64,000 nucleotides of DNA from Cymbomonas tetramitiformis (taxonomy: Eukaryota; Chlorophyta; Pyramimonadophyceae; Pyramimonadales; Pyramimonadaceae). Both the position numbers and the translations under genes were made by a program. The stretch is taken from the NCBI GenBank assembly GCA_001247695.2, contig LGRX02035036.1, positions 1 to 64,000 on the forward strand, given 5' to 3'. Shown piece by piece: positions 19,300 to 60,195 of the stretch. Below the pieces are notes generated by a model, which was not told the origin of the DNA, did not search any database, and worked only from the letters and a program-made list of their open reading frames with translations. The first letter of the stretch is position 1; each line of letters starts with the position of its first letter.

Positions 19300-19539
19300 C
19301 GATATGTGATTGCGTGTCACGCGCAAATATCAATCGATTCTGATATGTCCCACGGTCACGATCAATTGATTGTGATAATGCAAATCGAGAATCGATCGAT
19401 GGTGATAATTCGGATTAGGCATCAATCGATTGTAATTCTCGGAGGTGGGTATCAATTGATTGTGATATTTTGATTGTGTATCAAATAGGCATCAATTGAT
19501 TCTGATATTCTGATATATCGATGGTATCAGAATATCAAA
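19300..19539. repeat. Right subterminal motif cluster of the hAT element
   Basis: Six or more copies of ATCAATYGATTGTGAT/ATCGATCGATGGTGAT-like motifs next to the right terminal inverted repeat. They mirror the left cluster at 15725-16000. Confidence 0.8.
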
Positions 19540-19558
19540 CAATCGATTCCATGCCTTG

Positions 19559-24820: not shown

Positions 24821-24877
24821 GTCGATAGGTATTTATTTACAATATGTACTTAGTTTTTTTTATGCACGTGCGCCTGC

Positions 24878-26052: not shown

Positions 26053-26069
26053 CGTTTCTTTGAGTCCAT
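25932..26069 (-). CDS. Possible small proline-rich protein, 45 aa
   Basis: ATG 26069 opens MDSKKRCHVPHLPPIPEKPP and ends at 25932. A TATAAATA box lies at about 26112-26119 on the minus strand, 40-50 bp upstream, as for other genes in this block. It overlaps in another frame the extended start of the kinase-like gene, so only one of the two N-terminal readings is likely real. No known family. Confidence 0.25.
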   Translation of the reverse strand: MDSKKRCHVPHLPPIPEKPPDVPEPQKPCIGRPLTVMDGIYLTVL

Positions 26070-26211
26070 ACCGTCACGGATCGGTAAACAGACTGTAAGG
26101 TTATCGCGCATATTTATACAACGCATCGACGATGCGCGCGACGATGTGAACCCCTTTTTTCGCAGGGCGCGTTGACGTGTACAGCAACAGACGCATTACA
26201 ATTACATAATA

Positions 26212-27801
26212 CTAAGTATGTCCGCGCGTTCGCGGTCCCTTGGCTTTTGTTTCCGATCTAGGAGCCTGCGTAAAAGTCATTATGTCGTTAAACAGAAAGG
26301 CCCACACGACGTATCGCATTCTCCCGTTGGTGTCGTTGTAACCTACGCGCGTCTCATTTCCCGCTATGTACCTCACAAACCTCAGGGTCAAAGTGTTGTT
26401 GAAGGTTGCGCTGTACGCCAGCTGCACAAGCTGATACCTGTCGTCGTCGACGCGGTCGTCCGTGGTTTCGAGTCGCTTCTCCGCGGATTGTTTGCGCGCA
26501 GTCAATTTATGCTGACGGTCGGCGAGCTCTTTACGCGTGAGCTTGGCGTCCGGCGGCGCCTCTAGGGTCGCGTTTGTCATGCTGGCGAGCTGCGCGCGAC
26601 GACCTTGCAACACCTTGACCGCGTATTTTGGATCGTGCTTCGCTCTATGCAGCAGCACTTTTCGGTCCCGCTCTTTGAAGACCTTCTCATGCACCTGCAG
26701 AATGCTCTCGATCAGGTTGCTGGGGTTGTCCGCGGTGGCCGGCTTGCTCGCGGGTCTTTCGGCACTGAACAGTGCGGGAATCGCGTACGGCAGGTGGACT
26801 TTGTTGATCACGATGGGCATTACGTTGTCTGCGTGCTGTAGCAGACGCGACCACATGTCCGTGGTGTTCGCGTTGTTACACGCGTCGCACACTAGCAGTC
26901 TATGCAGCAACGTCAAAATGATACGCACGTTCTTCATGTCCATGGTAATGATGTCCCGCGGAGGATCCGACTGTTTGCTCGTCGGCACGTATATCTGAGA
27001 CGTGGTGCCATCCTTCACCACGGGAATGTTGTAATGATGGTTCAGCACCCGTCTGACCTGTTGCCTGAAGCTCCTGTCCTTGTTGTCCGATGTCGGTTTG
27101 CAGTGTCGTATCAGCTGGACCAGACGTAAGCACAGCGGCATGTACGTTGAAAACTCGTCTTTCGCGTTGTAGAGTTCGCGGTACAACGCGTAGAGCTGGA
27201 GCATTTCCATGACGTCACTGTCGGGCAACGCGATTCTGTGGTTTATGGGGTCTCCGTCGAAACGCGACTCTATCATGTTGCGCATCTCGGCAACCTGTTT
27301 GAGTCTCTGCAATGGGAGATTGTGTTTCAGCGCGTACGACTTGACGTAATTCTTGTTCGGGTAATCGCTCCGCTCCGTGTCGATAATATCCAAACACGCG
27401 ATGGTGCCGTTCGGCGGGGGGGGCGACTTTTCGCTCGCGGCGCGATTTACGAATTCAAGGCTCGTCGTTTCCAACGGACGGGTGACACGTTGTTTCTCGA
27501 CGTCCCTTTCCGTGTTGTCGATCCCCACATGTAAAAAGGACGGATCGGACGTGGGCGGATCCCACCCCACGTCGAACGAGCTGCCGCACGTGGTGCAGCA
27601 GAAAGAATCGCCGCAAAACCGCACGTAATGCCCTTTCGAATCCCAACAGGTATTATCCGCGGAATGCCTGTCCGTCATGGTCGGGTTGCACGCGTAAACC
27701 GTTTTTACGAGCTGACGCGGAAGGTCCACCTCTAAGGTCCATTTCGCGGACCGTTTGCGTTTTGCGGGTTTCAACCGTTTGGTATCTGAGAGGTGCTGCA
27801 T
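26212..27801 (-). CDS. Unrecognised virus-like protein with a Cys-rich zinc-ribbon-like motif
   Basis: About 529 residues from ATG 27801 (MQHLSDTKRLKPAKRK); a GTG at 27843 would add 14 residues. The basic N-terminus (KRLKPAKRKRSAKW) could be a nuclear signal or bind nucleic acid. A cysteine cluster follows at about residues 50-75 (CWDSKGHYVRFCGDSFCCTT and one more Cys), spaced like a zinc ribbon. The rest is mostly helical with a basic Lys/Arg/Gln-rich part near residues 400-460 and a conserved-looking core (LDIIDTERSDYPNKN). I do not recognise the family. Zinc ribbon plus basic head suggests a transcription or DNA-binding role, but this is inference. Single exon, head-to-head with the plus-strand gene at 27937. 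Confidence 0.6.
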   Translation of the reverse strand: MQHLSDTKRLKPAKRKRSAKWTLEVDLPRQLVKTVYACNPTMTDRHSADNTCWDSKGHYVRFCGDSFCCTTCGSSFDVGWDPPTSDPSFLHVGIDNTERDVEKQRVTRPLETTSLEFVNRAASEKSPPPPNGTIACLDIIDTERSDYPNKNYVKSYALKHNLPLQRLKQVAEMRNMIESRFDGDPINHRIALPDSDVMEMLQLYALYRELYNAKDEFSTYMPLCLRLVQLIRHCKPTSDNKDRSFRQQVRRVLNHHYNIPVVKDGTTSQIYVPTSKQSDPPRDIITMDMKNVRIILTLLHRLLVCDACNNANTTDMWSRLLQHADNVMPIVINKVHLPYAIPALFSAERPASKPATADNPSNLIESILQVHEKVFKERDRKVLLHRAKHDPKYAVKVLQGRRAQLASMTNATLEAPPDAKLTRKELADRQHKLTARKQSAEKRLETTDDRVDDDRYQLVQLAYSATFNNTLTLRFVRYIAGNETRVGYNDTNGRMRYVVWAFLFNDIMTFTQAPRSETKAKGPRTRGHT

Positions 27802-27900
27802 CTGCCTGAAGGAAAGCTGAGGAATGATCGCAAACGGGAGCACTAATGGTACTTATGGACTCCTTTGTTACGATGAGCGATGAAAAAATAAAACTGGTTG

Positions 27901-28023: not shown

Positions 28024-28049
28024 AAGCTGCTGCGTGCAGTAGCACAGAC

Positions 28050-28967
28050 TCAAATATGGGCTTGTTCAGCATACTGGGTCGTATCACCATCTGCCATGAA
28101 CTTGCCCAAACTGAAAGTGAACATACCAATGCCTTCACCTTCTCCGCCCTGTAACATTCTGGCTCTGACCAGCGGATTCTTGAACACCAAGACCCACATA
28201 CACCTGCGGCCAATAGGTCCATGTTCCAGATGCCCAATCACATGCAAGCGTCCTGTCTGACTCAATCGTCTGAAGTACGCAGCCCTGCTCTCGGTCATGT
28301 CTGTCAAGTAATAAGATGGAACGTGGACACATGCCACCACACGACTGGCCATTACTGCCAACGGAAACGCGATATCCAGCGCCGCGAACCAAGGTGAAGT
28401 CACCACTGCATCACAGACGCCATACTTCTCCTTCCATATACGATAGTTACCTGGCTGAAGTGCGTCATGCGCCTCAGACCAACCCAACTGAGAGTTCCAG
28501 TCATTGTTCATGAATCTCAACTGCGGCCATTGCTCCACCATCACCTCACTGATGACCCCAGTGCCTGCCCATGGGTCCCACACGCCATCGACGGACTTCC
28601 AGTCCACCTCTGTTGCCAGACGCCTCACCTCAGAGGGCACTGTGATAACTAGTTCAAGCCCCCACTGCAGCGCGCTAGCTTCTCTCACCTGCGCCTTAGT
28701 CATGTGTCTCAACTCCCCTCGTCTTTCAACTTCTTCTTCAGCCAACGCAGGCACAAGAGGTGCATCCCTCAGCTGCCTTGCCATGGCCTTCTGTTCCCGA
28801 TATTTCTTGCTCAGCACCGTGCGATGCCCCTCATTCCAGTGCCCTGGCATGAAGATCTGCACAGCCTCAGAGAGCTTGTCCTGCCTTCCCCAATCAATCT
28901 GATCTGGCATGCCCAAGAACATGTCCTCTCTTTCAACAGCATCTCCCTTGATGAGATGGCATGCCAA
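28050..28967 (-). CDS. Second SAM-dependent methyltransferase domain of the retroelement polyprotein
   Basis: The last frame of the element, 305 codons from 28967, continuing the polyprotein after a one-base loss near 28930. It has class I methyltransferase hallmarks: motif I DPWAGTGVISEVM (about 28580-28540), an acidic loop FMNNDWNSQLG, and motif IV DAVVTSPWFAALD (about 28405-28370), which resembles the DPPY/NPPF/SPPW signature of amino-methyltransferases. An N6-adenine or related base-methyl role is therefore possible, but TSPWF is not canonical and the substrate cannot be read from sequence. Upstream is a basic helical linker. The same domain is in frame and well conserved in copy 2 (48791-49884), which argues that it is functional rather than passenger sequence. 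Confidence 0.72.
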   Translation of the reverse strand: MACHLIKGDAVEREDMFLGMPDQIDWGRQDKLSEAVQIFMPGHWNEGHRTVLSKKYREQKAMARQLRDAPLVPALAEEEVERRGELRHMTKAQVREASALQWGLELVITVPSEVRRLATEVDWKSVDGVWDPWAGTGVISEVMVEQWPQLRFMNNDWNSQLGWSEAHDALQPGNYRIWKEKYGVCDAVVTSPWFAALDIAFPLAVMASRVVACVHVPSYYLTDMTESRAAYFRRLSQTGRLHVIGHLEHGPIGRRCMWVLVFKNPLVRARMLQGGEGEGIGMFTFSLGKFMADGDTTQYAEQAHI

Positions 28968-31900
28968 GGCTGAAACTTGTCTCCCTTCACCACCCGACGG
29001 GGACCCACGTCTGCTGGCAACAGGCGCATCTCCGCGGACAGCTTCTCATTCAATTGCTGCTCCTTCATGCCCAGTCTATCCTCTAGAGCACCAGGACTCT
29101 CGTCTTTCTGGGTCTGCACCTCCGCGTTGGCGGCTTGCATCCCCGTGCCTGAGCACCTGGGACATAGCCACTCGCCTTCTGGTACTTCATTCAGTGCTGG
29201 GGTCAGACACCACAAGTGGTACCCCCTGTTGCATGCGTCGCACAACAACATCTCTGCCTCCCCATCAGTCTTCCTGCACACTTCACATGCTAGGTGCTTG
29301 CTGGGGAAGGCTGCACTGCAGTCATACTGGTCCTTCACCTGTAGGTGACATGGCGCGATGTTCTGCACGGTGCTCTTCTCTCTTAACTTGGTGGCGTCCT
29401 CAAGCACCACCACGCCATCTCGCTGTATCTTGACCAGCTTCAGAATGGCGGATTTGGTCGCGACTTCCATGCCGCTGCGAGGCTTCTGTCTGATGTAGAC
29501 GAAATCGCCCACCTTAAACTGGTGTGGACTAGGCTCATAGCCCCCGCCTCTTTTCCCTTCATAATGTAGTGTATCACGATGCTGTGCGACCTCCAGGCTG
29601 CAACCAGCGTGTACCATAAGTCGCCTCACCACCTGTGCTCTCCGGTGGAGGTCCTTGACTCTGGCATCCTTCTCATCTTCGATCTCAGCACCAAAATCTA
29701 TGCTGGGTGCCTGCTTCAAATCAGGCGGCACCACTGCCTCTTGGGCAAATAACATGGTGAACGGCGCCACCCCCGTGGACTCCTGGCGCGCTGCATTATA
29801 GCTCAGCACTAGTGGCCAGAGCTGCTCATCCCACTCATAATCGAGACCCTTCTCCAAGGCAAGCTTCTTAAAGCAGAACTTCATAGTGCGTACCACTCGC
29901 TCGGTCAGCCCATTGCCTTCTGGTGAGTCTGGTGAGGTGACTCGCCGGTCGATCAGGCAGTCTCTGCACAGCTGCTTGAACTCACCTTCAAACTCCTTAC
30001 CTCCATCCACCAAGCATTCTGCCGGCGCACCAAACACAGCCAGTACATGACTGCGAAATGCCGCTGCGATGGTGCTCGCCTCCTTGTCAGGAATGGGCAC
30101 GCAGATTATGAACCTGGTGTAGTGCTCGGTCATGATGAGCACTCGGTTGTTGCCAGACTTGGTTTCTCTCCTCGAAGGCCATGCCAAATCCAGCGACCAG
30201 CGATACATGAACGATACGATCTCGAGGGGGGATAAACATGCCTCCTCTCTCGCATAATGAGTCTTCACACGCTGACAGGTCTCACACTGAGTGACCACAG
30301 CCTCCACGTCTTTCTTCAGATCGGCCCACCAATGGTGCTGCCACAAAAGATGCTGCGTCCGCCTTATGCCCCAATGTCCAGTTCTGGAGTGGTATTCCTT
30401 TACCAACGCGAGACGGTCAGCAGGCTTAGGTATTCTCACCTCCTTGCCCGACATAGTGACCATGTAGATCTCGTCCGTGGCCTCGTCCCATCGATGTCGT
30501 GCTGCTCGCCTCCTCACTCGGCGAACTTCCTCTTCTGGCAACCTCACTCTACCATTGGACTTCAACCATCTGAGGCACCATGCATCATCGTGTATATCTC
30601 GATGCTTGTCACGGTCTACCTGCTGCTCAGCCACGCTGGCCATCAGGTCATCGAATCTGGTGGTACACGCCAACCTGGGGAGCTTCATCTCCGACTCTTT
30701 GGCAGGCGGACTCCAGGCAGGCACATCCACGCGAGCTGCTGGGGTTGCGCCCTCCTTCACGAAGTGGTTCTCATGTCTCTGACGATACTGCGCCACGGTG
30801 TAGAGCTGCCACTCTTTCTTCTTCTTCTTCTTCTTCTTGGTTCCAGCCTTCTGTCGCTGGGCTCCAATTCCTTCTGCACCTTTCTGCCCTTGCGAGCACA
30901 TTACCTGCAGCTTCTCCTCCCAGTCACGATGGGTCATAGTCTTCGCCACCTGCTGGGTATATGCATTCGAATTCTCAACCCATTCCGCCAGCAAAGCTTG
31001 CCTCTGCTGAGGGTCCGATCTCTCGTGGTCTGCCCAGTTGTTGTCTACAGCGATGGGCTGTCCTGGGGAATTCTCTGCCTCTGGGGATTCCTCGCTGTGA
31101 GGGAGCCCCTTCCTGCTCGCTTCTGCGACTGCCATCAGCAGCTCCATTGCCCTGCGATCCATGGCCAGGCCCAGGATGCTTGCCAATTCTACGTCGTTCA
31201 GGCCATCGGCCATGCGTAGCTCACTTGCGCTGTAGCCCATGGCTCGCGCCTTCTCGTCGAGGTTCACTTCTCGAGATTCTTCCTCGGCGTCTTCATCGTC
31301 CTGGTTGCGCACCACGGTGCCCATCCTCGCTCTTCTGAACGCTCTTGACCCTTGCGTCGCCATGATGGTGGGTAGTGCCCTCAATGGTTCTCCCACCACG
31401 TTCACCACGTAGTGAGGCGCGCGGTCTGTCCTTATCACTGGCCTGGGATGCCAGCCCTTGCATATGATTGACGATACGATTCGTCCTTCTGGTCTCACCA
31501 CCTTGCTCATGACGGAGCGAAACTGGTGGCTCTGGAACAAGTTGCTCCAATACGCTCGCAATCGATGTGCGTAAGCGCCTGCTTGTGCTGCATCAAAGGA
31601 CACTGGTCGACCAATGACGCTGGCAATGTACGGGAACACCTCGTCCCTGATCTTGGTTCCAGGTCTGCGTGACAACGGAGAAACATTTTCCAGGATATAG
31701 CCTGGAGGCCTCTGCCGCTGCAGCTGCTGGAGTGTGGACAGAAGCCTGACCACTTCATAAAATAATTTGCTGTGCCTGCCATCCAGGCCTGTGAGTGTTC
31801 CAGCAGGGGAGAGATCCTGGCATGGGAACCCACATACCATGACCCACTGGCGTCCTTGAAGAGCTCCTGCTCGTATGAAGTCGGCGCTGGTGGTCTCGCG

Positions 31901-34900
31901 CAGATCTTGGGGTAGAGCCCCAAACTCTATTGCACGGGGCGAGATGAGGTCAGGGTATCGTCTTAGCAATGCCGTGCACCTGGCCCTGGCAACTGTCCGA
32001 CTGCTCGGGGATATGTCCTGATACAGGTAGCGATCCACCTTCATCCCACTGCGGAGCAACATTTCTAGCCCAGCACATAGGCCTCCACATGGCTCGTAGC
32101 ACACCACGCCTTCCTGCCGAGCTTGCGAGAAGAACCGACTGCCCAGCACCCTGGTGTCCACCTTCTCGGGCTTCAGGATGCGCTCACCTTCAAAGTACTC
32201 ATTGCTGTACACAGCAGGGCTTCCCTCGCCGTGCGTACCTCGCGTCGGCCTGACCAGGCTCAACGCCTTCCAAGCTGCTCTGGCTAGCCTTCCAGAGTCG
32301 GTCACCAGCTCAGGTAAGTCAGTGTCGAACATGTCCCCATGATTGCATTCTAATTCCTCGCGGTAGTGCAAGTCGAACAAACGATGCACTGGTCCCGTGC
32401 CCAGCTGCTCCATGGCAGCCATCCTGCAGTAGTTGGCAACCTGCACCTCTGGCGTGGCCTCTTCCCCTGGGAAAGCATCCCCAGCCAACATAAAGCACAA
32501 GTGGTCACGGAAGTCCTTCGTGTGAACTTCCCCCACGCCTGCGTGTAACGCAGTCACCTTCTCCCTCTCATGCCTCGCTCCAGTCTCATCCGTCGTGGAC
32601 GGCAGTGGGTAGCGAGACGGCACGTCAGCGTTGCTGTTCTTGGCACCTGGACGATACTTCACAGTGAAGTCGAACTCCTGCAAACTGATTGCCCAGCGTA
32701 GGTGTTGCCCTTGAAGATCGGCCTTCTCCATCAGGGTGGTGAGCGGTGAGTGGTCGGTCACCAAAGTGAAGTGGACTCCATGCAAGTACTGCATCAGTGT
32801 GCGCACTGCCCATACCACTGCGAGCATCTCCCCTTTGAAGCTGGCGTACTGTCTCTCCGTTTTACTCAGGGATCGGCTGATCGCCATACAAATGTACTCC
32901 TTCCCATCATCGTCCTTCTGGCCCAACACTGCGCCAATGCCATAGGTGCTCCAATCGGTGTACAATATGAGGGGTCTGTCATAATCGATAGGCCTCAGGC
33001 ACCTCCCAGAACAGAGAGCATCCTTCAGTTCTTGAAGTGCTCGGTCTTGCTCCTTCCCCCAGGCTCCCTTGATGTCAGTGACCTCCTTTTTGAGCAGGTC
33101 ATTGAGAGGGCGGGCCATCTCAGAGTAGTTTGCCCCCCCTGGCTCACCCACCAAGCCCTTGTAGTAGTTCATCATGCCCAAGATCGAGCGGAGCCCAGTC
33201 TTGTCCTGGGGGCTTGGAAGCTCCTGGATGGCCTTGCATTTAGCTTCTTGTGCGCCAATGGAGTTGTGACCAATGCGATAGCCCAGAAAGTCCACCGTGG
33301 CTGCACCAAAGGTACTCTTGCCTGCGTGCAAACGGATGCCAGCGTCCCCCAAGGTGCGAAGTACGTCCTCAACGTCCTTCAAATGCTGCTCAGGCGTAGA
33401 ATCCGTGTAGACCACTACGTCGTCGACGTACGCCACCGTGCAATGCTGCAAGTGACGTAACTCGTAGTCCATGATTCTTACGAACGCAGAAGTAGCTCCA
33501 GCTGCACCAAAAGGCATCGAGGTGTACTGGTACAGCTGATTCTTCCACCAAAACGCCGTCTTGCTCCTGTCCTCTTCCGTGGCCATGGGAATCTGATGGA
33601 AGGCTTTGGTGGCATCCAGCGTGGTCTTGAACTTAGCCTTCGCCACCTTCTGGTAGAGCTCCTCTGGTCGGTGCGGCAGCGTATTGTCTTTGAGGGAGTG
33701 CCGGTTGACACCCCTGAGGTCCACGCAGAATCCCGTCTGGGTCCACAGGCCCGTCTCGTGATCTTTCTTGCCAGCTACGACCACGTTGCTCGCGTGCCTG
33801 CAATGTTTGGCTGCTGGCTCTATGAAGCCATACTCCAACAGTTCCTTGCAATGAATGTCAATGATTTCCTGCTCGCCCGGACTGTACTTTCTGGGTCTCT
33901 GGTAGGCGGCCTTGGATTCGTCTATGAAAGGAATGGAGAACGTGTTGTGCTCCGCCTTGCCCTTGTAGCCTGTCAGATCGTGAGGACTGTTGGCAAAGGT
34001 GGTCTTGCACCTGCGAAGAACATTTCGCATTTCCTCCCAGTGCTCCTCCTTGAAGTCAGGATGTCCTCCAAACGTGGCATTGAGCTCAGTGTCAAGCCAC
34101 GCTGCCTCGTCCTTGGTCACTGTCGTGTCACCTAGAGGTTGAAGCTCGTCCAGCACGGTGTACGGCAAGACCTCATCCTGCTCCGCGACGTTGGCCTCCC
34201 AGCCCGGCTCCCATTGCCTTGAGGATTGCTGAGCCTCCCAAGAAGTGCAGGGGGACGAACCCCAAGCGCTGCGTGTGGGTGACGTGACATCACACGTAGG
34301 CACATACTCGGTCATCTTGCCAGCGACCCACAAGATTCCGCACAAAAGCAGAAAAAATCGCAAAATTCGATTGAAATGCACTGCGGCTGCCGGCGAGTTC
34401 GAAGCGAGGAAGCACGCCATCACTCTCCACCCCCCGTGCGCCAAGCGAGTACTCCCACCAGCAGCGGTGAAGACCACGACTGCAAGGACAAGCGCCATGT
34501 AGGCGGCTTGCGCGATGCGGTGAAGGCGGAGATTGCGTCGGAGCTGTGTCCAGCGCGCCGCGAAGCGAGGCTTGTCCAACCTGGCCGGCAGAGCGGGCAG
34601 GCGCACGCGGCCCAACAAGAAGACTTGGGACAAGCGCAGAGTCGGAACAGTCCATCCACGGCCATGCTGAACGTGACCTGCGTCCAGCGGGCAGTGCACG
34701 TGACAGGAGGCGTGGCACGCCATGTCCTCAGCGTAAATGCGGGCACAAACCCAGAGCCAGGCGAGGACCACGAAGAGGAGGGCGATCGCACACTGTGACC
34801 AGCACGCCAAGGAAACGACCACCATCCGAAGGGGCATCACCATCCAATCCCCCGCACGCATACGGTGCATGCCAGCATAGACGCCTGTGGCGCGCACGAC

Positions 34901-35305
34901 AAGCAGCCAAACGTACCAAAGGTAACGTAGGCGAGAGCCCATAAGACCCAGACGTCGTAAGATGCACGAAGAGGATAACGTCGAGCGGCCGACCACCATA
35001 TGGGCAGGTGGCTCAAAAATGAGGCCACGAAGCGCCCCCACCAGACTTGAAAGGGGCACCATGACAAGTGCCAAGCTATTGCCTCCCACATCGCCCATGC
35101 GGCGACCATGGGAATGGGACCACGTCCCAGCCACCACCAAATCACTGCACTGCCTGCAAACGAGATACACGCTCGCAGGACACCTGGCCTCAAGCGGACC
35201 GCCTGTGCAGGCGGCCCACGGCCACAGCGTTGGTCGTTCACCAGGGCTGCCCGCCCGCTGCGCCCGGGGAGCCCTGCTGAAAATGCGTCCGTCTCTGCGC
35301 CTCAC
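28811..35305 (-). CDS. Retroelement polyprotein: RT, RNase H, C5-DNA methyltransferase, integrase, PHD
   Basis: 2,164 codons. Residues about 1-330: several hydrophobic segments (YLWYVWLLVV, IALLFVVLAWLWVC, AYMALVLAVVVF, LRFFLLLCGILWV). About 455-690: reverse transcriptase with YVDD near 625. About 775-865: RNase H (LYTDWS, KGEMLA, TDHSP). About 1060-1400: complete cytosine-C5 methyltransferase with motif I-like YEPCGGLCAGLEM, catalytic GFPCQDLSPAG, ENVSPL, a QxRxR-like AYAHRLRAYW and a C-terminal LGLAMDRRAMELL. A poly-Lys run is near 1490. About 1640-1680: integrase HHCC; about 1700-1810: DDE core (DLAWPS, VDGGKEF, TERVVRT). Then an SH3/chromo-like tail, and a PHD finger near 2005-2050 (CEVCRKTDGEAEMLLCDACN ... 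HLWCL). No retropepsin motif is seen. The true C-terminus is the methyltransferase at 28050-28967. Confidence 0.9.
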   Translation of the reverse strand: MRRRDGRIFSRAPRAQRAGSPGERPTLWPWAACTGGPLEARCPASVYLVCRQCSDLVVAGTWSHSHGRRMGDVGGNSLALVMVPLSSLVGALRGLIFEPPAHMVVGRSTLSSSCILRRLGLMGSRLRYLWYVWLLVVRATGVYAGMHRMRAGDWMVMPLRMVVVSLACWSQCAIALLFVVLAWLWVCARIYAEDMACHASCHVHCPLDAGHVQHGRGWTVPTLRLSQVFLLGRVRLPALPARLDKPRFAARWTQLRRNLRLHRIAQAAYMALVLAVVVFTAAGGSTRLAHGGWRVMACFLASNSPAAAVHFNRILRFFLLLCGILWVAGKMTEYVPTCDVTSPTRSAWGSSPCTSWEAQQSSRQWEPGWEANVAEQDEVLPYTVLDELQPLGDTTVTKDEAAWLDTELNATFGGHPDFKEEHWEEMRNVLRRCKTTFANSPHDLTGYKGKAEHNTFSIPFIDESKAAYQRPRKYSPGEQEIIDIHCKELLEYGFIEPAAKHCRHASNVVVAGKKDHETGLWTQTGFCVDLRGVNRHSLKDNTLPHRPEELYQKVAKAKFKTTLDATKAFHQIPMATEEDRSKTAFWWKNQLYQYTSMPFGAAGATSAFVRIMDYELRHLQHCTVAYVDDVVVYTDSTPEQHLKDVEDVLRTLGDAGIRLHAGKSTFGAATVDFLGYRIGHNSIGAQEAKCKAIQELPSPQDKTGLRSILGMMNYYKGLVGEPGGANYSEMARPLNDLLKKEVTDIKGAWGKEQDRALQELKDALCSGRCLRPIDYDRPLILYTDWSTYGIGAVLGQKDDDGKEYICMAISRSLSKTERQYASFKGEMLAVVWAVRTLMQYLHGVHFTLVTDHSPLTTLMEKADLQGQHLRWAISLQEFDFTVKYRPGAKNSNADVPSRYPLPSTTDETGARHEREKVTALHAGVGEVHTKDFRDHLCFMLAGDAFPGEEATPEVQVANYCRMAAMEQLGTGPVHRLFDLHYREELECNHGDMFDTDLPELVTDSGRLARAAWKALSLVRPTRGTHGEGSPAVYSNEYFEGERILKPEKVDTRVLGSRFFSQARQEGVVCYEPCGGLCAGLEMLLRSGMKVDRYLYQDISPSSRTVARARCTALLRRYPDLISPRAIEFGALPQDLRETTSADFIRAGALQGRQWVMVCGFPCQDLSPAGTLTGLDGRHSKLFYEVVRLLSTLQQLQRQRPPGYILENVSPLSRRPGTKIRDEVFPYIASVIGRPVSFDAAQAGAYAHRLRAYWSNLFQSHQFRSVMSKVVRPEGRIVSSIICKGWHPRPVIRTDRAPHYVVNVVGEPLRALPTIMATQGSRAFRRARMGTVVRNQDDEDAEEESREVNLDEKARAMGYSASELRMADGLNDVELASILGLAMDRRAMELLMAVAEASRKGLPHSEESPEAENSPGQPIAVDNNWADHERSDPQQRQALLAEWVENSNAYTQQVAKTMTHRDWEEKLQVMCSQGQKGAEGIGAQRQKAGTKKKKKKKKEWQLYTVAQYRQRHENHFVKEGATPAARVDVPAWSPPAKESEMKLPRLACTTRFDDLMASVAEQQVDRDKHRDIHDDAWCLRWLKSNGRVRLPEEEVRRVRRRAARHRWDEATDEIYMVTMSGKEVRIPKPADRLALVKEYHSRTGHWGIRRTQHLLWQHHWWADLKKDVEAVVTQCETCQRVKTHYAREEACLSPLEIVSFMYRWSLDLAWPSRRETKSGNNRVLIMTEHYTRFIICVPIPDKEASTIAAAFRSHVLAVFGAPAECLVDGGKEFEGEFKQLCRDCLIDRRVTSPDSPEGNGLTERVVRTMKFCFKKLALEKGLDYEWDEQLWPLVLSYNAARQESTGVAPFTMLFAQEAVVPPDLKQAPSIDFGAEIEDEKDARVKDLHRRAQVVRRLMVHAGCSLEVAQHRDTLHYEGKRGGGYEPSPHQFKVGDFVYIRQKPRSGMEVATKSAILKLVKIQRDGVVVLEDATKLREKSTVQNIAPCHLQVKDQYDCSAAFPSKHLACEVCRKTDGEAEMLLCDACNRGYHLWCLTPALNEVPEGEWLCPRCSGTGMQAANAEVQTQKDESPGALEDRLGMKEQQLNEKLSAEMRLLPADVGPRRVVKGDKFQPWHAISSREMLLKERTCSWACQIRLIGEGRTSSLRLCRSSCQGTGMRGIARC

Positions 35306-36358: not shown

Positions 36359-37035
36359 TTGCGGCTGCGAGTCATGGGCACCGCGCGTTGCTATTGCTCG
36401 GTTGTGGCAATGTTCATTTGCGTTGTTTTACCTGCCCTGATCCCGCTGGTTTACGTATTTTGGGCTGGTGCTCCGGACGCCTTCGACCACATCGACATTT
36501 GCAAGTGCCCCACGCTCTTTTTGCCGCTCCGCACGTTCTGCCGTTACGTCATCCCTCCATTTCCGCCACAACACCCAAACGTGCTACCGCGCATCATCTT
36601 TTCTCTGGCTTTCAAAAGTATGGCAACATCTACTCGAGCTCGTAAACGCCTATTGAAGGACTCCGACTTGGACGCCTCTATACGGCTTATAGATGCGGTT
36701 CGGGACACCCCAACCGCTAGCACCCCGCCTGTGGTGCCCCCTAATCCTTCCAGCAACTCCGACGCCGCTGTCGCGTTGCGGAAGCATCTCGTTGACCAAC
36801 ACGCTGCGGTCGACGTGGTCTACAAGGGGAGACTACATCGGGCTTGCGCCAAGGGTATCCGCGAGGATATCCTTGGTTCCAAGAAACATCATTATCGTGG
36901 TACCGACGACACCGACCGCCTCTCCGAGTTGGTGGTGCAGCTTCGGACCGAGTTTGAGTCCGCTGGGCTGGACTTGACCCCCTTTGACCTCGACGACCAC
37001 CTCTTTGGTTATCGAGAAGGTTACATGTCCATGGT
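36359..37035 (+). CDS. Unrecognised plus-strand ORF with one TM segment, antisense to gag 3' end
   Basis: From ATG 36359: a hydrophobic segment (VVAMFICVVLPALIPLVYVF), then from about 36618 a basic, charged part (MATSTRARKRLLKDSDLDAS) and an ordinary soluble-protein composition up to about 37035 (DLDDHLFGYREGYMSMV). Beyond that the frame is the antisense of gag. Composition and codon use look more genuine on this strand than the antisense gag reading between 36833 and 37035. It may be the 5' part of a host gene carried inside the retroelement; no family recognised. Confidence 0.35.
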
Positions 37036-37729
37036 CGCTGAAGTCAACCACCCCCAGGTCATCCACGCAGGCAGCGGCTGCACATTGAGCGGCAGCGCTG
37101 TCGACCACACCGTCGGGCATCTCATCCAATGGCACCTCCTCCGTCACTGTGGCGTGCATTTTCCCCAGATCATGCTCGTTGACCTCGGTGGGTTGCTCGG
37201 TTGTATCCTTCGGACCGTTGCCCATGAGCTCCTCCAGCGCCAAGAGATTCTCGATGTCCTTCGGGAGGTCGATGGCGTGCTGGGATATCAGGATGGCCGC
37301 AATCTGCGAGCAAGCGCGCACGGCGCTGCGAAGATTGGATGCCAACAGGTGGAACTTCCTACTGAGTACGTTGGGAGGAATGGCTCTAGGCACCTGAGCG
37401 GCCCTGTCAAACTCCTCCGGCGTCTTGACCTGGAAGCCCCGCATTTGCTGAGTGCTGCCCAAGGCGACAGCGGCGCTGGCCTGGAGACTCGGCGCGTGAC
37501 CGATGTCAACACCATGACCACCTTCCAGCCCATGCCCAGCAGGGCAGTCCTGCTCATCCTCCTCGTATTCAGCCTGTTGGGTGAAGTGGGAGTCGTACTC
37601 AGTCTCCGCATCACTGACCTCTGACCGGGCCTGTGCACCGGCGCCCTTGTCATCCTCTGGAGGTGACCCTGCCTGGAGACCTGTCAATTCCGCAGCGAGT
37701 TTCTCTTTAACCTCGGCACTGGCAGCCAC

Positions 37730-37766
<37 letters not shown>

Positions 37767-39358
37767 AGCGGCTGCTTCTGCTTGGCCTCAGGGAGCTTGA
37801 GCCACTCCTTGGTGGTGATCCCCATCTTGTGCTTATCAAAGCGGTGCGCGATGTTGTAGGCGCGCATCTGGGCGTTCTTGACCTCGTCCGGCCACTTGGA
37901 GTTCTGCCGGTCCTTATGGAAGTTGGGCGGCACCCGGGCTTCACGACACCCCGTGTAGCAGCGCTCTGGAGAATGGGGCAGGCGCGTGAAGCACCAATCG
38001 CACTGGAACTTCTTTGAAGCATCAGGTGGTGGCACCTTACTGTAAGGAGGCTTCTGACGTTCAGCATTGTTCGCTTCCCTCACAGGCTTCTTGGCGTCAT
38101 CGCCACCATGCTGTGCTTGCTCCTTCTTCTTGGGGTCCCTGCGTCTGTCCCCAGTCTTGGAGGCAGAACCCGAGCGCCTCATGGCTGCTACTAGTGCAGC
38201 CAGGTCAAGCCCCAGCTGCCTGGCCTCGTAGCAGGAGTACACGCAGTTGAGCCTGCGAACCAGCTCCTGCTGCAGTGTAAGGGCCCAAGCCTCCGCATCG
38301 TTCTTCAACTTGTCCTGCACCTCCACGATCACCTCCAGGTCCTCCCATGTGACCTTGTTGGGGGCAGGATGGCTGACACGCAGCTGCTCGGACACGCGAT
38401 CTCGATATTCTTTGATGCGCAGGCCCTTGATGCACTCCTCGATGTCCTGCCTGACGACGGAGTCCTCCACCCTCTTGCCGGTGTTGAGCGCTGCCTCCGT
38501 GCGTCGGCAACTCTTCACGTAGGCGAGGCCGTCCTGCTCGTTGGTCTGCGGCTTGGCTATCAAGAGATCCTCCTTTTCTTTGGTGCCCTTCATCAAGAAC
38601 TTAGCTTCAAGCTCTGCAACGAAAGCCCTCAAGGCCCAAAAGTAGTGAGAATCTTCAGTGCCATCTGGCCCCGTGAGACCCTTGGTGGAGGTTCCCTCGC
38701 CTGCCCACTCATCAGACTCCTCGCCATCCTCATCACCATCCTCGAACACCTTACAAACTGCCCAGGTTGATCCTGGCGCCAGCTCATGAAAAGGAGGCTG
38801 CGCACAACGCACAGATCCCTGGTAGGCGTCTCTCATGGTGAGATCCTTCAGGACATGGCAAGCGTGTGAGGCCATGACGCCATCCTTCAGGTATGCAGCA
38901 CACCACCAGTCATAAGCGACTGAGGTGGAATGGTCGTCCCCTGCCAGAAACGAGGGTATACTATCCCACAATGATCTGAAGTCTGGCCTGGACTCAGCGA
39001 AGGCCTTCTTCTGCTGCTGACTGAGCGCATGGAAAGATGCTGACTTCATGTGCCTACGCTTCTTGGCCTCAAAAGCCCGCTGCACTTTCGCAACCATGTC
39101 CACGAAACGCCTGATGAAAAGCGCTCTATCCTCATTCTTACCACCAGTGTATTGGAGTTTGACATCTTCCTTGTCAAATGAGTGGCTATCCCTGTCATAG
39201 TAATCCATCTCGTCTACGTCGTCAAGCGCAAAGAGAAACTGGTTTGCAGGCGCTGAGGCTGCTACTGCTGCTGCGAGTGCTGTCGCTGCGAGCGCTGTTG
39301 CTGCTGATGATGACGGTGCGGAGGGAGTGGTTTCTGAGCCCGACCCCTCTGCGCTCAT
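36833..39358 (-). CDS. Gag-like protein of the retroelement
   Basis: 841 codons from ATG 39358. N-terminal Ala/Ser-rich stretch, then an acidic segment (FALDDVDEMDYYDRDSHSF) and a long helical middle (about residues 80-430), typical of a capsid-forming Gag. A Cys/His part follows (about 445-480: FQCDWCFTRLPHSPERCYTG then CREARVPPNFHKD), a possible zinc knuckle for RNA binding. A run of 12 Gln is near residue 540 (CAG/CTG repeat, 37729-37765), then an acidic tail. The last 60-70 residues (36833-37035) overlap the plus-strand ORF and may not be original. Only copy 1 carries this gene. Role by position and composition: packaging the element's RNA. Confidence 0.65.
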
Positions 39359-39559
39359 ATATTCCGTGTCAAGGTCCTGACTAGCCCGCTCTCGCGCCAG
39401 CCGTCGTGCCTCACGTTCTCTGGACTGGACAGAGGCAGCGCTTGGCTCTGCCTCACCCTCCGTGGTGAAGTACTGTGTTGAGGCTCAACCAATGGGACCA
39501 AGGAAGAGTCCCCTCTCTCAGCGCAAAGCTCGTTCACCAGTAGACTGGAGGCTTGATTC

Positions 39560-41010: not shown

Positions 41011-41116
41011 CCGAATCCGCTCTTGCAACTGCTGCTGAGTTCTCGCCAAAGGGCCCTTACTTCTGGATTAACACTGAAATAAAAAGCCGCTCCGCGCAGG
41101 ACATTATTGTTTTGAA

Positions 41117-41636
41117 AAAGTATGAAAACAGCAGTAAAATGTATCCGTCAAAATTGATATTATATCACAAAATACGAATTATTGTGTACAAAAGCTGTGA
41201 GCAGAACTGTCTTAGCAATCTAGCACTGGCACGCGAACAGCCACCTAGCACTTGCGAAGGCAAAACAATAATGAGTCCACTGATCTGACCTTCTGTCAGA
41301 GGTCACTTATCTCTCAATGCTCTGTCACATTTCCCAAAACTGTAACGGGTTCTAGCCCTCGAATCTTCATCTGGCCAATGGAAAGTCATTATTCCATGCC
41401 AGCTTTAATACTGTTACCGCTTAACACATTCTGACTGACACGTCAGTGGCAAAGGAGTTGCTGCCATCGTCATCGTATCATTCCTCAGTAACCTGATACT
41501 GACAATATCTTCTCTGACAAGTCTGTATCTCAAAGATGGTCATCTTCGCAAAGCCTGTCATACTGTCACCACTGTCATGCGTGTCACCAGCTGAACAAAC
41601 CCGGCGCGGTACCATGAGAAGCCGGCGTTTGTTACA
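41117..41636 (-). repeat. LTR-proximal leader block (copy in element 1)
   Basis: A 520-bp block nearly identical to 48016-48534. In the second place it lies directly inside an LTR copy (48535-48753), so it is read as the start of the internal region, beginning TGTAACAAACGCCGG on the minus strand. Here it abuts viral coding sequence at 41637 with no LTR between. A TGG-starting primer-site candidate (TGGTACCGCGCCGGG, minus strand) is about 20 bp inside. Confidence 0.75.
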
Positions 41637-41639
41637 ATG

Positions 41640-47789: not shown

Positions 47790-48008
47790 TGTCGCAAACG
47801 CGTGCATATGATGGTACGAACATTCTCGGAATCGGACGAACTTAACACTCGCGACCGGTCATAAGCATCATTAACATTCACTGATGTTGATAATCATCCG
47901 AGCAACTCTCAGCACAGCATAAGATCGTAAAGCTACGAAGAATTTTTAAAACTCTGATATCCTGAGATCGAACGCTGAACTCTTACATGCAAGCCCAGAT
48001 TTCCAACA
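47790..48008 (-). repeat. 219-bp LTR, outer copy
   Basis: Minus strand TGTTGGAAATCTGG ... GTTTGCGACA: TG...CA ends and a short TGT/ACA inverted end. It is nearly identical to 48535-48753 (one difference noticed, ACCGG/ACTGG). With the leader block at 48016-48534 it forms LTR-leader-LTR. Confidence 0.72.
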
Positions 48009-48015
48009 TGAAAAT

Positions 48016-48534
48016 ATATGAAAACAGCAGTAAAATGTATCCATCAAAATCGATGTTATATCACAAAATACGAATTATTGTGTACAAAAGCTGTGAGCAG
48101 AACTGTCTTAGCAATCTAGCACTGGCACGCGAACAGCCACCTAGCACTTGCGAAGGCAAAACAATAATGAGTCCACTGATCTGACCTTCGGTCAGAGGTC
48201 ACTTATTTCTCAATGCTCTGTCACATTTCCCAAAACTGTAACGGGTTCTAGCCCTCGAATCTTCATCTGGCCAATGGAAAGTCATTATTCCATGTCAGCT
48301 TTAATACTGTTACCACTTAACACATTCTGACTGACACGTCAGTGACAGAGGAGTCGCTGCCATCGTCATCGTATCATCCCACAGTGACCCGATACTGACA
48401 ATATCTTCTCTGACAAGTCTGTACCTCAGAGATGGTCATCTTCGCAAAGCCTGTCATACTGCCACCACTGTCATGCGTGTCACCAGCTGAACAAACCCGG
48501 CGCGGTACCATGGGAAGCCGGCGTTTGTTACAGC
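48016..48534 (-). repeat. LTR-proximal leader block between two LTRs
   Basis: Matches the right end of element 1 (41117-41636) with a few differences. Lying between two LTR copies, it looks like a second element of the same family from which all but the leader has been deleted. Confidence 0.72.
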
Positions 48535-48753
48535 TGTCGCAAACGCGTGCATATGATGGTACGAACATTCTCGGAATCGGACGAACTTAACACTCGCGAC
48601 TGGTCATAAGCATCATTAACATTCACTGATGTTGATAATCATCCGAGCAACTCTCAGCACAGCATAAGATCGTAAAGCTACGAAGAATTTTTAAAACTCT
48701 GATATCCTGAGATCGAACGCTGAACTCTTACATGCAAGCCCAGATTTCCAACA
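48535..48753 (-). repeat. 219-bp LTR, 3' LTR of element 2
   Basis: Directly follows a purine-rich tract on the minus strand (AGATGGGGGA, 48763-48754), as the polypurine tract should. Starts TGTTGG and ends CGACA. Confidence 0.75.
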
Positions 48754-51700
48754 TCCCCCATCTGTAGCTGCTGCGTGCAGTAGCACAGACTCAAATATGG
48801 GCTTGTTCAGCATACTGGGTCGTATCACCATCCGCCATAAACTTGCCCAGACTGAAAGTGAACATACCAACGCCTTCATCTTCTCCGCCCTGCAACATTC
48901 TGGCTCTGACCAACGGGTTCTTGAACACCAAAACCCACATACACCTGCGGCCAATAGGTCCATGTTCTAGATGCCCAATCACATGCAAGCGTCCTGTCTG
49001 ACTCAACCGTCTGAAGTACGCGGCCCTGCTCTCGGTCATGTCTGTCAAGTAATAAGATGGAACGTGGACACATGCCACCACGCGACTGGCCATTACTGCC
49101 AACGGAAACGCGATATCCAACGCCGCGAACCAAGGTGAAGTCACCACTGCATCACAGACGCCATACTTCTCCTTCCATATACGATAGTTCCCTGGCTGAA
49201 GTGCGTCGTGCGCCTCAGACCAACCCAACTGAGAATTCCAGTCATTATTCATGAATCTCAATTGCGGCCATTGCTCCACCATCACCTCACTGATGACCCC
49301 GGTGCCTGCCCATGGGTCCCACACGCCATCGACAGACTTCCAGTCCACCTCTGTTGCCAAACGTCTCACCTCAGAGGGCACTGTAATGACCAGTTCAAGC
49401 CCCCACTGTAGCGCGCTAGCCTCTCTCACCTGCGCCTTAGTCATGTGCCTCAATTCCCCTCGTCTTTCAACTTCTTCTTCAGCCAGCGCAGGCACAAGAG
49501 GTGCATCCCTCAGCTGCCTTGCCACGGCCTTTTGTTCCCGATATTTCTTGCTCAGCACCGTGCGGTGCCCTTCATTCCAATGCCCCGGCATGAGGATCTG
49601 CACAGCCTCAGAGAGCTTGTCTTGCCTTCCCCAATCAATCTGGTCTGGCATGCCCAAGAACATGTCCTCTTCCTTCAACAGAATCTCCCTTGATGAAATA
49701 GCATGCCAAGGCTGAAATTTGTCTCCCTTCACCACCCGACGGGGACCCACGTCTGCTGGCAACAGGCGCATCTCCGCGGACAGCTTCTCATTCAGTTGCT
49801 GCTCCTTCATGCCCAATTTATCTTCTAGGGCACCAGGACTCTCGTCTTTCTGGGTCTGCACCTCAGCGTTGGCGGCTTGCCCGTGCCTGAGCACTTGGGA
49901 CATAGCCACTCGCCTTCTGGTACTCCATCCAGTGCTGGGGTCAAACACCACAAGTGGTACCCCCTGTTGCATGCGTCGCACAACAACATCTCTGCCTCCC
50001 CATCAGTCTTCCTGCACACTTCACATGCTAGGTGCTTGCTGGGGATGGCTGCACTGCAGTCATACTGGTCCTTCACCTGTAGGTGACATGGCGCAATGTT
50101 CTGCACGGTGCTCTTCTCTCTTAACTTGGTGGCGTCCTCAAGCACCACCACGCCATCTCGCTGTATCTTGACCAGCTTCAGAATGGCGGATTTGGTCGCG
50201 ACTTCCATGCCGCTGCGAGGCTTCTGTCTGATGTAGACAAAATCGCCCACCTTGAACTGGTGTGGACTAGGCTCATAGCCCCCGCCTCTCTTCCCTTCAT
50301 AATGTAGTGTATCACGATGCTGCGCAACCTCCAGGCTGCAACCAGCGTGCACCATAAGTCGCCTCACCACCTGTGCTCTCCGGTGGAGGTCCTTGACCCT
50401 GGCATCCTTCTCGTCTTCAACCTCGGCACTAAAATCCATGCTGGGTGCCTGCTTCAAATCAGGCGGCACCACTGCCTCTTGGGCAAATAACATGGTGAAC
50501 GGCGCCACCCCCGTAGACTCCTGGCGTGCTGCATTGTAACTCAGCACTAGTGGCCAGAGCTGCTCATCCCACTCATAATCGAGACCCTTCTCCAAGGCAA
50601 GCTTCTTAAAGCAGAACTTCATAGTGCGTACCACCCGCTCGGTCAACCCATTACCTTCTGGTGAGTCTGGCGAGGTGACTCGCCGGTCGATCAGGCAGTC
50701 TCTGCACAGCTGCTTGAACTCGCCTTCAAACTCCTTACCTCCATCCACCAAGCATTCTGCCGGCGCACCAAACACAGCCAGTACATGACTGCGGAACGCC
50801 GCTGCGATGGTGCTCGCCTCCTTATCGGGAATAGGCACGCAGATTATGAACCTGGTGTAGTGCTCGGTCATGATGAGCACTCGGTTGTTGCCAGACTTGG
50901 TTTCTCTCCTCGAAGGCCATGCCAAATCCAGCGACCAGCGATACATGAACGACACGATCTCAAGGGGGGATAAACATGCCTCCTCTCTCGCATAATGAGT
51001 CTTCACACGCTGACAGGTCTCACACTGAGTGACCACGGCTTCCACGTCTTTCTTCAGATCGGCCCACCAATGGCGCTGCCACAGAAGATGCTGCGTCCGT
51101 CTTATGCCCCAATGTCCAGTTCTGGAGTGGTACTCCTTTACCAACGCGAGCCGGTCAGCAGGCTTAGGTATTCTCACCTCCTTGCCCGACATAGTGACCA
51201 TGTAGATCTCGTCCGTGGCCTCGTCCCATCGATGTCGTGCTGCTCGTCTCCTCACTCGGCGAACTTCCTCTTCTGGCAACCTCACTTTACCATTGGACTT
51301 CAGCCATCTGAGGCACCATGCGTCATCGTGTATGTCTCGATGCTTGTCACGGTCTACCTGCTGCTCAGCCACGCTGGCCATCAGGTCATCGAATCTGGTG
51401 GTACACGCCAACCTGGGGAGCCTCATCTCTGACTCTTTGGCAGGCGGACTCCAGGCAGGCACCTCCACGCGAGCTGCTGGGGTTGCGCCCTCCTTCACGA
51501 AGTGGTTCTCATGCCTCTGACGATACTGCGCCACGGTGTAGAGCTGCCACTCTTTCGTCTTCTTTTTCTTGGTTCCAGCCTTCTGTCGCTGGGCTCCAAT
51601 TCCTTCTGCACCTTTCTGCCCTTGCGAGCACATTACCCGCAGCTTCTCCTCCCAGTCACGATGGTTCATAGTCTTCGCCACCTGCTGGGTATATGCATTC

Positions 51701-53410
51701 GAATTCTCAACCCATTCCGCCAGCAAAGCTTGCCTCTGCTGAAGGTCCGACCTCTCGTGGTCTGCCCAGTTGTTGTCTACAGCGATGGGCTGTCCTGGGG
51801 AATTCTCTGCCTCTGGGGATTCCTCGCTATGAGGGAGCCCCTTCCTGCTCGCTTCTGCGACTGCCATCAGCAGCTCCATCGCCCTGCGATCCATGGCCAG
51901 GCCCAGGATGCTTGCCAATTCTACGTCGCTCAGGCCATCGGCCATGCGTAGCTCAGTTGCGCTGTAGCCCATGGCTCGCGCCTTCTCGTCGAGGTTCACT
52001 TCTCGAGATTCTTCCTCGGCATCTTCATCGTCCTGGTTGCGCACCACGGTGCCCATTCTCGCTCTTCTGAACGCTCTCGACCCTTGCGTCGCCATGATGG
52101 TGGGTAGTGCCCTCAACGGTTCCCCTACCACGTTCACCACGTAATGAGGCGCGCGGTCTGTCCTTATCACTGGCCTGGGACGCCAGCCCTTGGATATGAT
52201 TGACGATACGATTCGTCCTTCTGGTCTCACCACCTTGCTCATGATGGAGCCAAACTGGTGGCTCTGGAACAAGTTGCTCCAATACGCTCGCAATCGATGT
52301 GCGTAAGCGCCTGCTTGTGCTGCATCAAAGGACACTGGTCGGCCAATGACGCTGGCAATGTACGGGAACACCTCGTCCCTGATCTTGGTTCCAGGTCTAT
52401 GTGACAACGGAGAAACATTTTCCAGGATGTAGCCTGGAGGCCTCTGCCGCTGCAGCTGCTGGAGTGTGGACAGAAGCCTGACCACTTCATAAAACAATTT
52501 GCTATGCCTGCCATCCAGGCCTGTGAGTGTTCCAGCAGGGGAGAGATCCTGGCATGGGAACCCACATACCATGACCCACTGGCGCCCTTGAAGAGCTCCT
52601 GCTCGTATGAAGTCGGCACTGGTGGTCTCGCGCAGATCTTGGGGTAGAGCCCCAAACTCTATTGCACGGGACGAGATGAGGTCAGGGTACCGTCTCAGCA
52701 ATGCCGTGCACCTGGCCCCGGCAACTGCCCGACTGCTCGGGGATATGTCTTGATACAGGTAGCGATCCACCTTCATTCCACTGCGGAGCAACATTTCTAG
52801 CCCAGCACAGAGGCCTCCACATGGCTCATAGCACACCACGCCTTCCTCCCGAGCTTGCGAGAAGAACCGTTTGCCCAGCACCCTGGTGTCCACCTTCTCG
52901 GGCTTCAGGACGCGCTCACCTTCAAAGTACTCATTGCTGTACACAGCAGGGCTTCCTTCGCCATGTGTACCCCGCGTCGGCCTGACCAGGCTCAATGCCT
53001 TCCAAGCTGCCCTGGCTAGTCTTCCAGAGTCGGTGACCAGCTCAGGTAAGTCAGTGTCGAACATGTCCCCATGATTGCACTCCAACTCCTCGCGATAGTG
53101 CAAGTCGAACAAACGATGCACTGGTCCCGTGCCCAGTTGCTCCATGGCAGCCATCCTGCAGTAGTTGGCGACCTGTACCTCCGGCGTGGCCTCCTCCCCT
53201 GGGAGAGTATCCCCAGCCAACATAAAACACAAGCGGTCGCGGAAATCCTTCGTGTGAACTTCCCCCATGCCTGCGTGTAGCGCAGTCACCTTCTCCCTCT
53301 CGTGCCTTGCTCCAGTCTCATCCATCGTAGACGGCAGTGGGTAGCGAGACGGCACGTCAGCATTGCTGTTCTTGGCGCCTGGGCGATACCTCACAGTGAA
53401 GTCGAACTCC
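48754..53410 (-). mobile_element. Retroelement copy 2, 5'-truncated
   Basis: Homologous to 28024-32665 of copy 1. The match starts in the polyprotein just after RNase H (EFDFTVRYRPGAKNSNADVP) and ends at the 3' LTR. Everything upstream, including gag, RT and RNase H, is missing; at 53410 the sequence changes abruptly to GGTAAAC-type repeats. Poly-Lys and a few other positions differ, and most substitutions are silent by eye. Confidence 0.88.
48791..49981 (-). CDS. Retroelement copy 2: linker and second methyltransferase
   Basis: The authentic part starts at about 49884, where the frame continues the PHD-containing polyprotein after a 4-base deletion relative to copy 1 (GCTTGC--CCGTGC against GCTTGCATCCCCGTGC). 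From there 360 codons run without a break through MFLGMPDQIDWGRQ to the methyltransferase (DPWAGTGVISEVM; TSPWF) and the end at 48791. This copy keeps the frame that copy 1 lost near 28930, which shows the ancestral fusion. Residues before 49884 in this frame are antisense-like noise. Confidence 0.7.
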   Translation of the reverse strand: MRRMQQGVPLVVFDPSTGWSTRRRVAMSQVLRHGQAANAEVQTQKDESPGALEDKLGMKEQQLNEKLSAEMRLLPADVGPRRVVKGDKFQPWHAISSREILLKEEDMFLGMPDQIDWGRQDKLSEAVQILMPGHWNEGHRTVLSKKYREQKAVARQLRDAPLVPALAEEEVERRGELRHMTKAQVREASALQWGLELVITVPSEVRRLATEVDWKSVDGVWDPWAGTGVISEVMVEQWPQLRFMNNDWNSQLGWSEAHDALQPGNYRIWKEKYGVCDAVVTSPWFAALDIAFPLAVMASRVVACVHVPSYYLTDMTESRAAYFRRLSQTGRLHVIGHLEHGPIGRRCMWVLVFKNPLVRARMLQGGEDEGVGMFTFSLGKFMADGDTTQYAEQAHI

Positions 53411-60150: not shown

Positions 60151-60195
60151 GCTGCGCGCGATGGGGGTTGTGATCCCTAGCGTTGAACGTGCATT

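Follow-up and report, generated by a model that had tools for sequence, protein, structure and literature searches.

Among the described systems closest to the element considered here is KnitGypsy-Dnmt3 of the charophyte Klebsormidium nitens (de Mendoza et al. 2018, PMC5890265). The portions of that paper on which we draw describe retrotransposons that captured Dnmt3 independently in dinoflagellates and in a single charophyte. According to a passage of an opinion paper (PMC6338049), Ty3/Gypsy and DIRS elements that encode DAM and DCM enzymes have been revealed in groups that include green algae and charophytes; a retroelement with a methylase is therefore, as such, no novelty in green algae. 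For Cymbomonas, part of a further paper describes Chlamyvir-type chromoviruses and mentions a viral element that has near-identical chromoviral pol genes on its flanks (PMC10675990). Here we analyze a window of 64,000 nucleotides, the whole stretch of DNA presented above, from the prasinophyte Cymbomonas tetramitiformis, a chlorophyte (contig LGRX02035036.1; contig C24858 of the genome searched, which comprises 851.7 Mb in 25,745 contigs). A first-pass annotation, made from the letters of the window, had noted that cytosine methyltransferases captured by LTR retrotransposons were reported in Symbiodinium and Klebsormidium. What it observed is confirmed by our analysis, and its interpretation is partly supported.

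On balance, we favor the reading that the window holds an abundant, recently mobile Ty3/Gypsy-type element with split repeats, whose pol joins a DNMT3-like enzyme, a PHD finger, and a predicted amino-methyltransferase, and which would mark its own complementary DNA (cDNA).

Coding domains and the C5 methyltransferase

Copy 1 of the element lies on the minus strand (28.0-41.6 kb) and is of Ty3/Gypsy type, with a gag-like open reading frame (ORF) and a pol ORF. It extends from a terminal repeat at 41636 through the gag-like ORF and pol to a broken 3' end near 28025. The order of domains in pol is reverse transcriptase, RNase H, DNMT3-like C5-methyltransferase, DDE integrase, PHD finger, and a second class I methyltransferase, here called MTase2. 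The coding features are as follows.

36833..39484, minus: gag-like ORF, stop to stop (ATG ORF 36833-39358)
28811..35305, minus: pol ORF, 2164 aa (ORF list and Pfam)
33272..33700, minus: reverse transcriptase, RVT_1 (Pfam 2.8e-22)
32672..32986, minus: RNase H (Pfam 1.3e-31)
30926..32128, minus: C5 cytosine methyltransferase, DNMT3/DRM family (Pfam C5 DNA methylase 1.1e-8)
29921..30424, minus: integrase, zinc-binding H2C2 and rve core (Pfam zinc domain 1.4e-15, rve 5.3e-7)
29153..29287, minus: PHD finger (Pfam 1.2e-11)
28053..28928, minus: MTase2, second class I S-adenosylmethionine methyltransferase, predicted amino-methyltransferase (in copy 1, in a frame other than that of the pol ORF)
48766..53410, minus: copy 2, its 5' side lost inside the reverse transcriptase/RNase H region; has C5 methyltransferase, integrase, PHD finger, and MTase2
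48794..49669, minus: MTase2 of copy 2 (from the alignment of the copies)

The first-pass annotation had placed the element at 28050 to 35305. The domains of that span stand, but the element is larger, running from 41636 to about 28025 and including the gag-like ORF. A Pfam search of the ORF at 28811-35305 (minus) recovered reverse transcriptase, RNase H, C5-methyltransferase, integrase, and PHD finger in the order that it gave, and the motifs DPWAGTG and TSPWF that it listed for MTase2 are likewise present.

The succession of reverse transcriptase, RNase H, and integrase, with an integrase of the DDE type, is that of Ty3/Gypsy elements. The integrase zinc domain scored well over its Pfam cut-off, and the rve core slightly under (30.3 bits vs 32.6). 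No recombinase domain, such as the tyrosine recombinase of DIRS elements would have, was found in the five ORFs scanned with Pfam. The Pfam scan of the element's ORFs likewise gave no chromodomain; a PHD finger, with both its Cys4-His-Cys3 pattern and its profile match, is present instead. The position of the gag-like ORF fits gag, but the Pfam scan gave no domain in it; over 704 columns it is 39% identical to the N-terminal part of a 3150-aa Cymbomonas polyprotein (P0013).

Judged by its motifs and matches, the C5 domain is a DNMT3-type methyltransferase whose predicted active-site residues are intact. Its best protein match is CYMTET_51793 (99% identical). Against the PDB, DNMT3A was the best match both for the single sequence (2.6e-6) and for a profile (1e-11). 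A ten-sequence profile returned 49 PDB matches, of the first 35, 33 are entries for DNMT3A/B/C or DRM2 and two bear just the name DNA methyltransferase, with HhaI next. The entries 4onj and 4onq, which carry only the latter label, we take to be DRM. The motifs PCQ, ENV, and AHRLRAYW stand in unrearranged order in the window. We aligned the window with the 88 of 102 homologues that have a C5 match of more than 300 residues (14 were dropped). In 88 of these 89 rows, the catalytic Cys, the Glu of motif VI (ENV), and the Arg pair of motif VIII are kept, the exception being a Pleodorina protein (P0104). The residue preceding the catalytic Cys is itself variable: it is Glu in 55 of the 89 rows (ECQDLSPAG) and Pro in 24, an odd variant in which the Cys is retained.

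The second methyltransferase

We predict from sequence that MTase2 is an amino-methyltransferase (N6-adenine or N4-cytosine) unrelated to the C5 enzyme. Its predicted fold is class I, with motif I ahead of a motif IV that stands after strand 4; against the [DNS]PP[YFW] pattern of such enzymes, the third residue of motif IV is W in the window (SPWF) and P in 7 of the 24 intact rows. In searches with profiles made from its relatives, the best sequence matches are phage and bacterial DNA methyltransferases, the strongest being phrog_799 (2.3e-13) and PADLOC type II methyltransferases (3.2e-5). The Dam profile PF05869 is not among the families matched by 20 MTase2 members (Pfam, E up to 1), and the MTase2 alignment found no confirmed relative in viral and prokaryote contigs. 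The predicted fold is a tie between DNA and RNA N6-adenine enzymes. We also considered a METTL5-like N6-adenine methyltransferase acting on the genomic RNA of the element, or on a structured region of it, in packaging, translation, or escape from RNA sensing. We regard this as unlikely, because the strongest profile matches are to DNA methyltransferases and because the intact MTase2 motif is S-P-[PWF]-[FY], not the NPPF of METTL5. Grouping with RNA or protein methyltransferases was the outcome that the first-pass annotation named as telling against its reading. The sequence points instead to DNA methyltransferases, but the fold does not choose between DNA and RNA enzymes, and the Foldseek ranking of the MTase2 model is headed by gidB and O-methyltransferases, so the fold alone is no proof of a base substrate.

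MTase2 recurs among homologues. PHD patterns are present in 85 of the 102 (the 17 without were set aside), and in 58 of these 85, MTase2 lies behind the PHD finger. Where the tail is at least 240 residues long, it is present in 58 of 61; shorter tails have it in none of 24, some of which are possibly cut ORFs. Named carriers include Chlamydomonas eustigma (P0102) and Pleodorina starrii (P0104), and two Haematococcus rows (P0065, P0066) are without it. As read from these sequences, the clade with the DNMT3-type enzyme spans several chlorophytes and many probably metagenomic contigs, with MTase2 in many members. A quick tree of the C5 domain, a check that the first-pass annotation had proposed, has MTase2 carriers in many branches, with at least 22 label changes (starred branches force 16 of them); in one clade, which has a support of 100 by this quick method, six rows are without MTase2 and one is undetermined. 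Our own reading is one old gain of MTase2 with repeated loss, although the tree cannot tell gain from loss. Behind the PHD finger of several relatives (P0049, P0053, P0065, P0077, and others), there is also a conserved-looking segment of the form WG.v.FrG...P.YF.v.Y.DG, ahead of MTase2, which we did not recognize in the window. Its likeness to a Tudor reader was judged by eye; one PDB search gave only ribosomal L3 at 0.028.

Comparison of the two window copies, which are 96.0% identical over 4655 bp, revealed purifying selection on both methyltransferases, and strong selection on MTase2. In its 292 codons, we counted 36 synonymous and 4 nonsynonymous changes, and the ratio of nonsynonymous to synonymous rates (dN/dS) of 0.027 is the lowest among the parts tested. 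Values for the integrase (27 and 4; 0.039), the C5 domain (23 and 12; 0.155), and the linker (7 and 5; 0.187) are higher. With an assumed neutral nonsynonymous share of 0.77, the binomial p was 3.5e-19 for MTase2, 6.7e-14 for the integrase, 8.9e-8 for the C5 domain, and 1.0 for the PHD finger. The frame breaks between PHD and MTase2 are at different sites in copies 1 and 2, which argues that the split frame is decay, not design. The genome agrees: a search with MTase2 gave 3442 first-look candidates (copy 2 of the window lies outside the best 134, which were scored), and all of the best 134 cover MTase2 residues 1-292 at 99-100% identity. MTase2 lies inside a single open frame of 2413-2416 codons in 21 of them. 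It is stop-free in 131, a share that should be discounted somewhat, since scoring the best candidates first biases it upward. A DNA query spanning the PHD finger and everything up to the MTase2 end had 2495 candidates; of the best 40, 35 match it over its full length, and 5 include all of MTase2 but not the upstream end of the query. A chance ORF is ruled out by homologues (MTase2 behind the PHD finger in 58 of 85), by the strong purifying selection, and by genome copies.

Several observations weigh against an active enzyme that marks the element's cDNA. The window MTase2 alone matches no family in Pfam, NCBIfam, PHROG, or PADLOC, so its assignment rests on relatives; single-sequence searches gave nothing in Pfam, NCBIfam, or PDB, and in PHROGs at best E 0.19. 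Even the profile gave only weak PDB matches (0.065 and worse). A Pfam D12 match was near noise, and an unrelated NCBIfam transaminase model scored 7.3e-4. An obvious target-recognition domain was not seen in the model. Among PHD-bearing homologues, 27 of 85 are without MTase2 (24 of them short-tailed), and the C. eustigma and Pleodorina rows have lost motifs. The PHD finger, with 1 synonymous and 4 nonsynonymous changes, has a dN/dS of 1.09, on too few changes. Finally, SP[PWF][FY] is present in only 24 of 59 aligned MTase2 rows (SPWF 14, SPPF 7, SPFF 2, SPWY 1), and all three tested motifs in 23, the window included, the remainder being variant, degenerate, or truncated.

This last point bears on a further alternative, namely that what is retained in MTase2 is its shape, the domain serving the polyprotein as a protein-interaction module or being a pseudo-enzyme, with any activity incidental. 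The 35 rows without the motif (at least three of them truncated there) would suit such a role, since many nevertheless match the profile over most of the domain. We hold it to be rather improbable, given the 23 rows that keep all three motifs and the excess of synonymous over nonsynonymous changes between the window copies.

Repeats, ends, and neighborhood

Split-type repeats are a feature of DIRS/PAT elements. The Cymbomonas element, too, has split direct repeats, in the layout B - gag - pol - A - B - A, and identical long terminal repeats (LTRs) directly bounding both ends, as in Ty3/Gypsy elements, were not found: B stands at the 5' end and A-B-A at the 3' end. The features that define these ends are as follows.

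41113..41636, minus: terminal repeat B at the 5' end of copy 1; sense strand starts TGTAACAAACG; 96.2% identical to 48009-48532
41102..41114, minus: putative primer-binding site CAAAACAATAATG, where B meets the internal part
48755..48765, minus: polypurine tract ACAGATGGGGG, ahead of the 3' repeats in copy 2; the same sequence stands before A in 8/8 genome 3' ends
48535..48754, minus: first repeat A at the 3' end of copy 2 (TGTTGG...GCGACA)
48009..48532, minus: 3' repeat B of copy 2; its A-GC-B junction reads CGTTTGCGACA-GC-TGTAACAAACG
47790..48009, minus: second, terminal repeat A of copy 2, which completes the A-B-A end

The layout recurs in the genome. The 3' end is A-B-A in 10 of 11 copies, the eleventh being cut by a contig end, and the 5' end is B without a preceding A in 6 of 7. 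The seventh (C23734) goes against the pattern: its 5' B (11.3-12.8 kb) is preceded by A, with the pol end and polypurine tract of another copy before it, a head-to-tail tandem. The exact A-GC-B junction has 1183 genome occurrences, and the reversed control has none. We had considered a conventional 745-bp LTR (A+B), its 5' part gone from copy 1; this was dropped, as genome copies have B alone at the 5' end and A-B-A at the 3' end.

Insertion is precise. A 4-bp target-site duplication flanks every non-tandem copy with both ends, five in all (GTGG, AACA, TTGA, TGAT, GTTT). One copy (C23847) at first appeared to be without a duplication; the flank of an earlier partial B had been read, and the true 5' end has one. 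The ends of the element, TGTAACAAACG and CGTTTGCGACA, are near inverted repeats (9/11 by eye). The two B repeats of one copy are 98.3-99.8% identical (six copies, the tandem included), which indicates young insertions. The putative primer-binding site is complementary, at 13 of 13 positions, to a stretch 363 bases into B; none of 1958 control windows reaches 13 (longest 12). Of 7 genome copies, 6 share the 13-nt match with the window, and the seventh matches over 11 nt.

Around the element, long same-strand ORFs (1149, 600, 195, 223, and 543 aa) at 19535-22984 (minus) and 23018-27843 (minus) adjoin copy 1 where its 3' end is broken. They have no Pfam matches; the first, of 1149 aa, resembles by eye two LamG-type lectin repeats. 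A 1029-aa ORF rich in proline/threonine low complexity (41536-44625, plus) overlaps terminal repeat B, and about 15 copies of a 223-bp repeat occupy 54904-61097 in several blocks, some interrupted. Ten neighboring ORFs scanned matched no Pfam family, and two of these had no PDB match. No Rfam family was found in the window, and a plasmid search gave no match.

A self-marking model and known systems

The organization of pol suggests that the element puts chemical marks on its own DNA copies ahead of their entry into the genome. Self-priming is known from Tf1, and the RNA of this element may similarly prime its own reverse transcription. With a primer site beside B and a polypurine tract before A, conventional reverse transcription would give an A-B...A-B cDNA; joining of its ends would create a B|A junction, and a cut at A-GC-B would then yield B...A-B-A. 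Integration would join the ends TGTAAC...GCGACA; the donor may be a circle in which B and A have become linked, opened at the inverted-repeat site A-GC-B. The cDNA would be methylated by the C5 enzyme and by MTase2 while it is inside the particle or pre-integration complex, giving 5-methylcytosine and either N4-methylcytosine or N6-methyladenine, and the PHD finger may dock the integrase onto histone H3. We infer both cDNA methylation and PHD-guided integration because the domains sit beside reverse transcriptase and integrase. The marks would probably make a new copy resemble the DNA of the host or determine the state of its chromatin. Whether a transposon writes its own methylation can be put directly to the test, since nanopore data are published for this alga and its genome has at least 134 near-identical copies.

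A role in silencing or defense useful to the host, in which the methyltransferases would target host DNA or competing mobile DNA and viruses and not the element, is to our minds very unlikely: accessory retrotransposon methylases have been proposed as antiviral (passage in PMC6338049), the Cymbomonas genome has much endogenous viral DNA (part of PMC10675990), and MTase2 relatives match models of anti-phage restriction methylases, but there is no sign of action in trans, and domains within pol beside reverse transcriptase and integrase favor action on cDNA.

More tentatively, and as something we think possible though less than probable, the model may extend to a green-lineage Gypsy clade that places two base marks on its own cDNA (5-methylcytosine by the DNMT3-type enzyme; N4-methylcytosine or N6-methyladenine by a bacterial-type amino-methyltransferase), carries a histone reader on its integrase, and integrates by DDE chemistry from a permuted, probably circular form. 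If this is true, a bacterial-type DNA mark would have a long-retained source inside a eukaryotic nucleus, and that source would be present in very many copies.

Known systems share parts of this design. METTL5, M.TaqI, and phage DNA methyltransferases (phrog_799; Listeria phage LMSP-25 gp046) have the class I fold and match MTase2 in sequence over motifs I-IV; they are, however, not retroelement domains, and the phage protein LMSP-25 gp046 has NPPF where MTase2 has SP[PWF][FY]. Chlamyvir-type chromoviruses have a Ty3/Gypsy pol and occur in the same alga, but contain a chromodomain (part of PMC10675990), where our element has a PHD finger; the main text of that paper contains no word beginning with "methyl". 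SymbioDIRS-Dnmt3 and DIRS elements with Dam-like methyltransferases also carry a retroelement-borne DNA methyltransferase (portions of PMC5890265). DIRS elements differ in their tyrosine recombinase and in the Dam-like type of their enzymes, in contrast to the DDE integrase and the lack of a PF05869 match here.

KnitGypsy-Dnmt3 is similar in its Gypsy-type pol, in a Dnmt3-type methyltransferase within the polyprotein with conserved key residues, and in purifying selection; a figure legend gives it a DIRS-like repeat layout like that of the Cymbomonas element, a likeness drawn from the description alone. Its host is a charophyte, whereas Cymbomonas is a chlorophyte, and a PHD finger and second methyltransferase go unmentioned in the text portions of PMC5890265. 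The passage in PMC6338049 likewise names no element with two methyltransferases or a PHD finger. In the open-licence literature, subscription papers being outside that scope, we found no report of a retroelement with both C5 and amino-methyltransferases. The first-pass annotation had called the combination with a PHD finger and a second methyltransferase undescribed to its knowledge. From its sequence, the element is a DNMT-bearing Gypsy of known kind with a second methyltransferase for which we found no description, widespread in green algae. Presence in chlorophytes raises the idea of one old green-lineage Dnmt3 capture. The DNMT3-type enzyme appears here as a conserved part of a Gypsy clade in several chlorophytes.

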